Shown here: piece after piece, positions 19,709-21,867 of the stretch
Layout of the letters: every line of letters begins with the position of its first letter
Position numbering within the stretch: position 1 is the first letter of the stretch
NCBI RefSeq assembly: GCF_000710775.1
Contig: NZ_JOJP01000001.1
Coordinates: forward strand, 4,426,141 to 4,490,140
Reading direction: 5' to 3'
Origin: Endozoicomonas elysicola
GTDB taxonomy: Bacteria > Pseudomonadota > Gammaproteobacteria > Pseudomonadales > Endozoicomonadaceae
DNA: 64,000 bases
Made by a program: the position numbers and the translations under genes
Notes under the pieces: generated by a model
The model's input: only the letters and a program-made list of their open reading frames with translations
What the model was told of the DNA's origin: nothing
Databases searched by the model: none

Positions 19709-21631
19709 TCAAGCAGTACGGCCACGCTTGAGAACGTCTGAATCAAGACGCTCTTTAAACTCTTCAATGGACATTACGCCCAAATCTTCACCGGTACGAG
19801 TGCGAACCGCAACGGTATTATTCTCCATTTCCTTATCGCCGATTACCAGCAGATAAGGCACCTTCATTAAGGTGTGCTCGCGGATTTTAAAGCCGATCTT
19901 CTCATTTCTCAAGTCCGCTTTTACCCTGATACCCTGTTCAGACAGATTTTTCTCCAGTTTTCTGGCGTAATCTGCCTGTCTATCAGTGATATTGAGGATA
20001 GCAGCCTGCGTCGGAGCCAGCCAGACCGGCATTGCACCTTCATAATGCTCGATCAGAATACCGATAAAGCGCTCGAAGGATCCCAGAGTCGCGCGGTGAA
20101 GCATAACGGGTGTTTTACGTTCACCCTGCTCATCCACATATTCAGCTCCGAGACGACCCGGCATGGAGAAATCCACCTGAATCGTACCACATTGCCACAC
20201 TCGACCAATGCAGTCTTTCAGGGAAAACTCTATTTTAGGTCCGTAGAAAGCGCCTTCACCCGGCAGCTCTTCCCATGGAAGATCTTTGGCATCCAATGCT
20301 TCTGCCAATGCCTTTTCGGCTTTATCCCAGATTTCATCGGAGCCTACACGCTTCTCCGGGCGGGTTGAGAGCTTATAAATCAGGTTGTTACGATCAAACC
20401 CAAAATCATCATACACACTGTGCAGAAAATCAATAAAATCACAAACTTCAGATTGAATCTGATCTTCTGTGGCAAAAATATGGGCATCATCCTGAACAAA
20501 GCCACGGACACGCATCAGCCCATGAAGAGATCCGGAAGGCTCATTTCGATGACAGGAGCCAAATTCAGCCAATCTCAGTGGCAGATCACGGTAACTCTTC
20601 AATCCCTGGTTAAAGACCTGTACGTGACAAGGGCAGTTCATCGGCTTAATAGCCATGTCCTTGTTTTCAGAACTGGTGGTAAACATGCCATCAGCGTATT
20701 TGTCCCAGTGACCAGATTTCTCCCACAGACTACGATCGACCAGCTGAGGTGTTTTGATCTCTTCATAACCGGCCAGACGCTGCTTGTTGCGCATGTACTG
20801 TTCCAGTTCCTGATAGATCGCCCAGCCATTAGGGTGCCAGAACACCATGCCAGGAGCTTCTTCCTGCATATGGAACAGGTCAAGCTTCTTGGCCAGTTTA
20901 CGGTGATCCCGCTTCTCAGCTTCTTCCAGACGGTGCAGGTAGGCTTTAAGGGCTTTCTTATCTTCCCAGGCAGTACCATAGACACGGGTCAGCATTTCAT
21001 TATTCGAATCACCGCGCCAGTAGGCACCTGCAACCCGCATTAACTTGAATGCTTTCAGCTTGCCAGTAGACGGGACATGCGGGCCACGGCAGAGATCCAT
21101 CCATTCGCCCTGACGGTACACAGAAATAGCTTCACTGGACGGCAGGTCGTTGATGATTTCAACTTTATACTCTTCACCCATTGCCTTGAAAGCACTGATA
21201 GCCTCGTCGCGGCTCATCACAACCCGCTCAATAGCAAGATCCTGTTTTGCCAGCTCTTCCATACGTTTTTCAATTTTGGACAGATCGTCCATATTGAAAG
21301 CCCGCTCATAGGAAAAGTCATAATAGAAGCCATTTTCAATCACTGGCCCAATGGTCACCTGAGCGCCAGGAAACAGGTCCTGCACCGCCATGGCCAGAAG
21401 GTGCGCCGTGGAGTGACGAATAACATCCACACCCTCTTGATCACGGGTAGTGATGATGGATAAATCAGAATCTTCAGTAATTTTGGCACTGGCATCCACC
21501 AGTTCACCATTCACACGGCCGGCGAGCGTCGCCTTGGCCAGCCCTGGACCGATGTCCTGGGCGACTTCCATTACGGATACTGCATCAGCAAACTCGCGCT
21601 TGCTGCCATCGGGAAGCGTAATAACGGGCAT
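19709..21631 (-). CDS. thrS: Threonyl-tRNA synthetase
   Basis: 640 residues, full length. In order: TGS domain (1-60), the editing domain with its HSTAHL-type zinc/editing histidines (about 70-225), class II catalytic domain (about 240-530) with zinc ligands in MNCPCH, DDAHIF and [13 protein letters not shown], and the anticodon-binding domain (about 540-640). It charges tRNA-Thr. It begins the operon thrS-infC-rpmI-rplT. GGA at 21637-21643 region precedes ATG 21629-21631. The leader holds three anticodon-arm-like hairpins described separately, so autogenous translational control is very likely. Confidence 0.98.
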
Positions 21632-21666
21632 GAAGGAGTCCTTACATTGTTTTCACTATTTCAGTG

Positions 21667-21762
21667 GCAACCCGTACCGGAGGCTGCTTGTTCTATGACT
21701 CTTGCCAACCCATACGCAGGGCTGAGAGCCGGAAACCAGTGGCAATCCATACCAAGGATTGC
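21667..21762 (-). promoter_or_regulatory. thrS leader: three tandem tRNA-Thr anticodon-arm-like hairpins (putative operator)
   Basis: In the minus-strand RNA, three 7-bp stems each close a 7-nt loop. Nearest the gene, 21687-21667: stem GCAGCCU with GGGUUGC, loop CCGGUAC. Middle, 21725-21705: stem UCAGCCC with GGGUUGG, loop UGCGUAU. Farthest, 21762-21742: stem GCAAUCC with GGAUUGC, loop UUGGUAU. At loop positions 3-5, which correspond to tRNA positions 34-36, they read GGU, CGU and GGU, all threonine anticodons, each followed by A as at tRNA position 37. The loops are 37-38 nt apart. Escherichia coli ThrRS represses its own mRNA by binding anticodon-arm mimics; here there appear to be three. 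The nearest ends 35 nt before ATG. Confidence 0.82.
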
Positions 21763-21837
21763 ATGAATTTTCTCAACGTTCATTGAGGAACTAATGGTTT
21801 GTAAAACCGAGGGAGAAAATTGCAGGTTTAACTTTAT

Positions 21838-21867
21838 ATAATCATAGTTACCAATCAATGATGTCAA
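21838..21867 (-). promoter_or_regulatory. Putative thrS operon promoter
   Basis: On the minus strand TTGACA (21862-21867) is followed after 18 bp by GATTAT (21838-21843), a perfect -35 and a 4/6 -10. Transcription starting near 21830 gives a leader of about 200 nt that contains all three hairpins. Confidence 0.65.

Follow-up and report, generated by a model that had tools for sequence, protein, structure and literature searches.

The thrS operator of Escherichia coli is a textbook case of tRNA mimicry. The leader of thrS in Endozoicomonas elysicola raises the question of whether such an operator can exist in an enlarged form, with three hairpins that mimic the anticodon arm of tRNA-Thr. In the cited passages, the E. 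coli operator is described as having two hairpins (PMC11088916, PMC7373986). Threonyl-tRNA synthetase (ThrRS) bound to the thrS leader excludes the 30S subunit, and tRNA-Thr competes for the enzyme, according to the same and two further sources (PMC11088916, PMC7373986, PMC9976931, PMC3858243). One of them also places an unstructured U-rich ribosome-binding stretch upstream of a hairpin (PMC3858243). We analyzed a stretch of 64,000 nucleotides from E. elysicola (GCF_000710775.1, contig NZ_JOJP01000001.1, positions 4,426,141-4,490,140; hereafter the window, to which all coordinates refer), and compared its thrS leader with those of relatives. The genome of E. elysicola itself is denoted G000, and the genera of its family are given by number.

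Structure of the thrS leader

The thrS gene (19709..21631, minus strand, start codon at 21631) was found as an open reading frame encoding a ThrRS of 640 residues, and its product matches the solved threonyl-tRNA synthetase 1QF6 with an E-value of 5.6e-275. All the leader features described below are on the same minus strand. Three hairpins with the shape of an anticodon arm follow one another upstream of the gene: H1 (GCAAUCC-UUGGUAU-GGAUUGC, 21762-21742), H2 (UCAGCCC-UGCGUAU-GGGUUGG, 21725-21705) and H3 (GCAGCCU-CCGGUAC-GGGUUGC, 21687-21667), the last of which adjoins the ribosome site. The Shine-Dalgarno sequence AAGGA (21639..21643) lies 3' of H3, and its AGGA is invariant in an alignment of 17 leaders. 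In tRNA numbering, the triplets at positions 34-36 of H1, H2 and H3 are GGU, CGU and GGU, each followed by A37, and the loop-to-loop spacings are 37 and 38 nt. The minus-strand sequence thus has everything that the preliminary description of this locus had read from it: three 7-bp stems, 7-nt loops, threonine anticodon triplets with a following A, and a regular spacing. H1 and H3 carry the tails CACUGG (21736..21741) and CACUGA (21661..21666), respectively, the former resembling in type the tail that single arms have in other families. Both arms are matched, tails included, by R1, a covariance model of the arm (21736-21762 and 21661-21687).

H2 is extended by an outer helix, GGCUC (21730-21726) paired with GAGUC (21701-21697), with a 3-nt bulge on the 3' side (21697..21730 as a whole), as indicated by covariation and the predicted fold. 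The corresponding helices are GGUUC/GAACC in G010 and CGUUC/GAACG in G021, both likewise across a 3-nt 3' bulge. The 17-nt linker between H2 and H3, part of which is inside this outer helix, is A-rich rather than U-rich. The CAC-UG tail of the other arms is readable in the same manner, as a CAC bulge followed by a UG that pairs with a conserved CA/UA located one base before the 5' strand, and RNAalifold puts such CA/UG-type outer pairs at H1. If so, all the arms may share a common plan of outer helix, 3-nt bulge, 7 bp and 7-nt loop, with the reservation that variation in the CA/UG pairs is too slight for proof of the outer pairing.

Two small elements were seen near the ribosome site. In 9 of the 11 genus-1 leaders, inspection by eye shows a copy, AGUG or CAGUG, following the CACUG tail of H3; the copy may form a small hairpin adjoining H3, here CACUGAAAUAGUG (21666-21654, minus strand), which competes with the proposed CA/UG outer pairs. 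The Shine-Dalgarno sequence lies inside AAGGACUCCUU (21643-21633, minus strand), a motif that can fold on itself with 4 bp and may weaken ribosome access; it varies somewhat within genus 1.

Upstream of H1, AAUUUUCUC (21821-21813) and GAGAAAAUU (21774-21766) form a 9-bp helix, H0 (21766..21821), which is also present in the predicted fold. H0 is not an anticodon mimic, and is probably near the 5' end of the transcript. When the best partner was taken for a GAGAAAAU-like motif, H0 was found in 17 of the 21 leaders of genera 1 and 5, with 9/9 pairs in 16 of them and 8/9 in one; the end pair is A-U, G-U or G-C, and the loop has 12-49 nt. The leaders of G019-G022 have no H0, and their H1 stems have 8-10 bp instead. 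A consensus scan gave a promoter-like site, TTGACA-18-GATTAT, before the leader (21838..21867, minus strand, 10/12 matches). Two such sites were found in the scanned region against a shuffled mean of 0.8, and the evidence for a promoter here is weak.

The array is beyond chance

Hairpins with a 7-bp stem and a 7-nt NGU loop were counted in 100,000 first-order Markov sequences modelled on the 219-nt leader and its dinucleotide make-up. None occurred in 98,598 of these sequences, one in 1,389 and two in 13, and no sequence had three. On both strands of the whole window, 150 exact 7-bp/7-nt hairpins with any loop were found, 9 of which, including H1-H3, have an NGU loop. The fold of the leader, a check proposed in the preliminary description, also agrees: all three arms are present in the minimum-energy structure, with one of the seven pairs of H2 missing. 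The folding energy is only mildly unusual (z of -1.45 and -1.59; 16 and 11 of 200 shuffles at least as stable). Since the total folding energy is not striking, the case rests on form and conservation. The array of three hairpins in the thrS leader is confirmed to be real.

Conservation of the array in the family

The family was searched with the first 100 residues of ThrRS, and a match was found in 35 of 37 genomes. The two genomes that gave no match were G015 and G006, the latter from the genus of the window and with only a C-terminal piece of thrS seen. When each arm was required to have an NGU triplet and at least 6 of 7 pairs, the three-arm array was present in 22 of the 35 family leaders, namely 11/11 of genus 1, 10/10 of genus 5, and G014 of genus 3. 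The loop spacings across the family arrays are 34-38 nt. Family arms were collected at -150 to -20, and the H1 arms of G025-G027 (-157, -158) were thus not entered. The preliminary description had made its proposal depend on conservation of the hairpins and of their N-G-U loops in relatives, and both are present. Conservation is less strict at some other positions: the loop-closing pair of H3 is lost (U opposite C) in 5 of the 11 genus-1 leaders, and H2 and H3 of genus 1 have no U33.

Smaller arrays occur in the rest of the family. The genus-4 leader G016 has a damaged array, the proximal loop of which lacks G35 (by eye). Three leaders of genus 8 (G031, G035 and G036) have two clean arms 37-38 nt apart. 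One clean and one damaged arm were found in G032 and in G034 (by eye in the latter), and a single arm in G017, G029 and G030. No arm was found in G012, G013, G028 and G033 by the criteria used for family leaders. G031 (L138) has an extra 7-bp NGU hairpin with its loop at -202, which is possibly a remote third arm or a product of chance.

Single arms in the order and class

To cover the order, 60 of 138 matching genomes were picked by hand, one per genus and none from family f1. An arm was defined here by NGU, at least 6 of 7 pairs, a tail of CACT, CGCT or CACC, and a location at -100 to -20. Such an arm was found in 50 of the 60 leaders, with the loop starting 27-45 nt before the start codon. 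The typical single arm, GUGGCCU-UUNGUAG-GGGUCAC-CACUGA, is located directly before the Shine-Dalgarno sequence, and H3 is its counterpart. The other 10 leaders have no arm by these criteria, and some of them contain damaged remnants (e.g. G072, G049). The arm is not essential to thrS, being absent by the criteria used from four family leaders and from 10 of the 60 in the order. The arm of a Marinobacter leader (L032), though visible, was not entered under the collection criteria. Only one of the 60 leaders, that of G044 (family f9; L242/L185), has two arms, which are 34 nt apart and both have a CACUG tail.

In the class, R1 gave a match in 76 of 229 genomes at E-values up to 0.1 under the stricter filters of Infernal; the model needs a CACUG-type tail for a good score, and arms of the H2 type or of the E. 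coli domain-4 type are uncounted in this figure. The best matches are closely tied to thrS: among the 71 that could be checked, 69 share the strand of the thrS match and end 7-30 nt upstream of it, two (G324 and G180) lie away from thrS, and for the remaining 5 of the 76 the place of thrS is not listed. Two R1 matches at one place were found only in the E. elysicola genome; in three other genomes, a second match is on another contig. In a search of the whole E. elysicola genome, H3 and H1 were found with E-values of 7.3e-5 and 1.3e-4, respectively, which measure specificity and not discovery because R1 was trained on arms including H1 and H3. No other arm of the H1/H3 type was found there below an E-value of 0.5, the next match being at 0.505, in this search that is blind to tail-less arms.

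A different hairpin was seen about 90 nt before thrS in L149 and L165 (G108 and G136, family f37). It has 7 bp and the loop UUGGUUU, and is followed by a U-rich run. It is terminator-like and also bears a threonine anticodon triplet.

Covariation of the stems and constraint on the loops

The preliminary description had claimed that the stems are kept by compensating changes, and the covariation test on the leaders of relatives bears this out. In an alignment of 73 arms (A1), five of the seven pairs changed on both sides and 97.3% of the cells are paired. The score of 0.589 is above those of all 500 shuffles (mean 0.336), and alignments that had been slid gave at most 0.177. A1 holds 73 of 96 distinct arms, and 16 middle arms are in a separate alignment (A2). 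Seven arms were left out, namely two chance hairpins overlapping H3, the four tail-less H1 arms of G019-G022, and one arm of G014. The middle arms alone gave a score of 0.320 vs 0.204; in two of five measures, both-side changes and pair types, 82 and 179 of 500 shuffles, respectively, did as well. A whole-leader alignment (A3) of 17 of the 21 leaders of genera 1 and 5, from which G019-G022 were left out, gave a score of 0.193 vs 0.135, with pair types no better than in shuffles (273/500). In these 17 leaders, the H2 outer helix has 78.3% of its cells paired, and both-side changes occur at three of its five pairs. RNAalifold gave the same leaders a weak covariation term (-1.22), dropped one pair of H1, and did not place the outer helix of H2.

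The loop GU in A1 is no evidence because GU was a selection criterion. Hairpins were therefore also counted with the loop letters unconstrained. Among exact 7-bp/7-nt hairpins, NGU was found in 38 of 42 in the 60 order leaders (-60 to -20) and in 65 of 66 in the family leaders (-150 to -20). The chance of GU at loop positions 4-5 is about 1 in 16, to be read with the fact that the rows are related and are not independent events. Across the arms, the equivalents of G35 and U36 are kept and base 34 varies.

These results bear on the idea that only H3 regulates thrS, H1 and H2 being neutral tandem duplicates that have not decayed so far. Such an idea would agree with the fact that most sampled relatives manage with a single arm, as G017 does in the family, and that decaying copies are present in G016, G032 and G034. 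Neutral decay, however, would break stems. In each of the 21 leaders of genera 1 and 5, both H1 and H2 have retained an NGU loop and no fewer than 6 of their 7 pairs (6 in three H1 and two H2 arms), and changes on both sides were found at one pair each in H1 and H2 and at three pairs of the H2 outer helix. We therefore consider it unlikely that the two upstream arms are idle duplicates.

Base 34 and the tRNA-Thr isoacceptors

It had also been suggested that the GGU and CGU loops copy different isoacceptors, so that each would read a separate species of tRNA-Thr. The sequence AUCC-UUGGUA-GGAU is common to H1 and the anticodon arm of the cell's own tRNA-Thr(GGU), and H2 has CGU in 11/11 genus-1 leaders, as this suggestion would lead one to expect. 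ARAGORN, run on two stretches of the genome, found tRNA-Thr UGU and GGU, yet no arm in the leader has UGU. One pattern, with 22 listed matches in G000, gave no CGU tRNA-Thr there, whereas a close pattern does find one in G014. A second pattern gave 30 listed matches in G000, with one CGU string that is not a tRNA. A near match, TCGTAA... at G000:C1:5383230, is not a tRNA and was rejected. A null result with a CGU pattern in 37 genomes was set aside because the pattern missed the G014 gene and its T-arm letters were unmet by the real GGU gene of E. elysicola. The CGU of H2 is thus apparently unmatched by any tRNA of its own genome. Base 34, moreover, does not follow the isoacceptors: it is free in the 50 order arms (G in 26, C in 15, A in 9, U in none), and H2 of genus 5 has GGU in 10/10 leaders. 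The suggestion is unsupported, and we consider separate reading of isoacceptors very improbable. The likeness of H1 to the tRNA-Thr(GGU) arm fits mimicry in general.

Origin of the array

A quick search gave a ThrRS tree of 38 rows, among them 8 of the 11 from genus 1, 8 of the 10 from genus 5 and the 14 remaining rows of the family; several of its branches are open, and it has some long branches that are uncertain. The three-arm leaders group with genus 4 with a support of 83, or 97 without G014, and the two-arm genus 8 is sister to this group (91). The tree fits an array that arose once and was later lost in genus 4. The three-copy operator appears to have been inherited by E. elysicola and its relatives. 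G044, the two-arm leader of another family, is far from the family arrays, and its second arm apparently arose by an independent duplication. The main clade of the family does not include genera 2, 6 and 7. The ThrRS of the armless G012, G013 and G028 is placed outside it, a hint of gene replacement or of rapid evolution.

Comparison with the E. coli operator

The E. coli leader has the arm GTGATCT-TTCGTGT-GGGTCAC-CACTGC directly before the Shine-Dalgarno sequence, which we take to be domain 2. In A1 this arm aligns without gaps to H1 and H3, and the CAC-UG tail is common to all of them. H3 is the counterpart of this E. coli hairpin, and H1 is a second hairpin of the same type. Of the 644 columns in the alignment of E. 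elysicola ThrRS with that of E. coli, 394 are identical. N576, E601 and R610 align to the identical E. coli residues N575, E600 and R609, which are presumably the anticodon contacts of the E. coli enzyme.

There are also differences. The E. elysicola leader has three arms, two of them with a CACUG tail, whereas two hairpins are described for E. coli. The E. coli operator is divided into domains 1-4, with arms in domains 2 and 4; E. elysicola has two further arms, H1 and H2, upstream of the proximal one. The linkers are short and not U-rich, in contrast to the E. coli linkers, which are described as U-rich, and the 5' helix H0 is added. A resemblance in summed linker length to E. coli was judged to be numerology and dropped.

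Because of the gapless arm alignment, the identity of the ThrRS proteins and the identical contact residues, the same mechanism is the best reading of the leader. Form, position and conservation support the proposal of an E. coli-type ThrRS operator with three anticodon-arm mimics. By analogy with E. coli, the leader is very probably a translational operator of this type, enlarged to three mimics. If ThrRS exceeds tRNA-Thr, the anticodon-binding domains of the enzyme would grip the arms through the bases equivalent to G35 and U36. ThrRS on H3, directly upstream of the Shine-Dalgarno sequence, would keep the 30S subunit off, and tRNA-Thr would lift the block by competing for ThrRS. H3 may be the essential blocking arm. 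H1 or H2 would fill the second subunit of the ThrRS dimer, as E. coli domain 4 is thought to do, and the third arm may raise avidity or let a second dimer bind. A graded, cooperative operator, in which one dimer bridges two arms and the third arm recruits or holds a second dimer, is a tentative extension of this scheme that we regard as possible, but less probable than not.

Other explanations and known systems

Stable hairpins near the 5' end of an mRNA commonly slow its decay. The hairpins of the thrS leader could in principle serve mRNA stability or nuclease processing without binding ThrRS. H0, which is not a mimic, may act in this way. Such a role, however, leaves the 7-nt loop size, the fixed GU at 35-36 and the tie to thrS unexplained, and is highly improbable as an account of the arms.

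A T-box riboswitch or a transcription attenuator sensing tRNA-Thr has a negligible probability: the same gene, a tandem arrangement and a tRNA logic are found in Bacillota, where thrS is described as having two or three tandem T-boxes that bind tRNA and control transcription read-through (PMC12452182), but the E. elysicola leader matches no Rfam family at E-values up to 1, the sole terminator-like site in the leader scan is on the opposite strand and none is on the coding strand, and the arm loops carry the anticodon and not the threonine codon, so that a T-box is refuted unless a wholly new class is meant. The Bacillota T-boxes are likewise tandem tRNA-related elements before thrS, but they are an unrelated RNA with an unrelated mechanism. 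Another comparison is offered by the mRNA of yeast AspRS, which according to the cited passages binds the synthetase through elements that resemble an anticodon (PMC9976931, PMC7373986). The enzyme, the domain of life and the RNA are different from those of the thrS array, and the logic of binding the own mRNA is the same.

Significance of the proposed three-arm operator

The Rfam search mentioned above covered 4227 models; the E. coli thrS leader (L111:500-950) gave no Rfam match either, and Rfam 15 seems to have no thrS operator family. Among the literature matches listed, none deals, judging by its title and the start of its abstract, with thrS leaders from this group or with an operator of three or more arms, a result that falls short of proving that no such report exists. 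The known operator is the two-arm E. coli type, and the candidate three-arm version appears to be new.

The dozens of homologous arms constitute a covariance-ready family, which could seed an Rfam entry, and are a natural mutational scan of the loop bases that ThrRS requires. The natural series of leaders with one, two and three arms makes the need for more than one arm directly testable. If the cooperative scheme is true, repression of thrS in E. elysicola would be steeper toward free ThrRS than in E. coli, and the number of arms, which is 0, 1, 2 or 3 among relatives, would be an evolutionary setting of feedback sensitivity.
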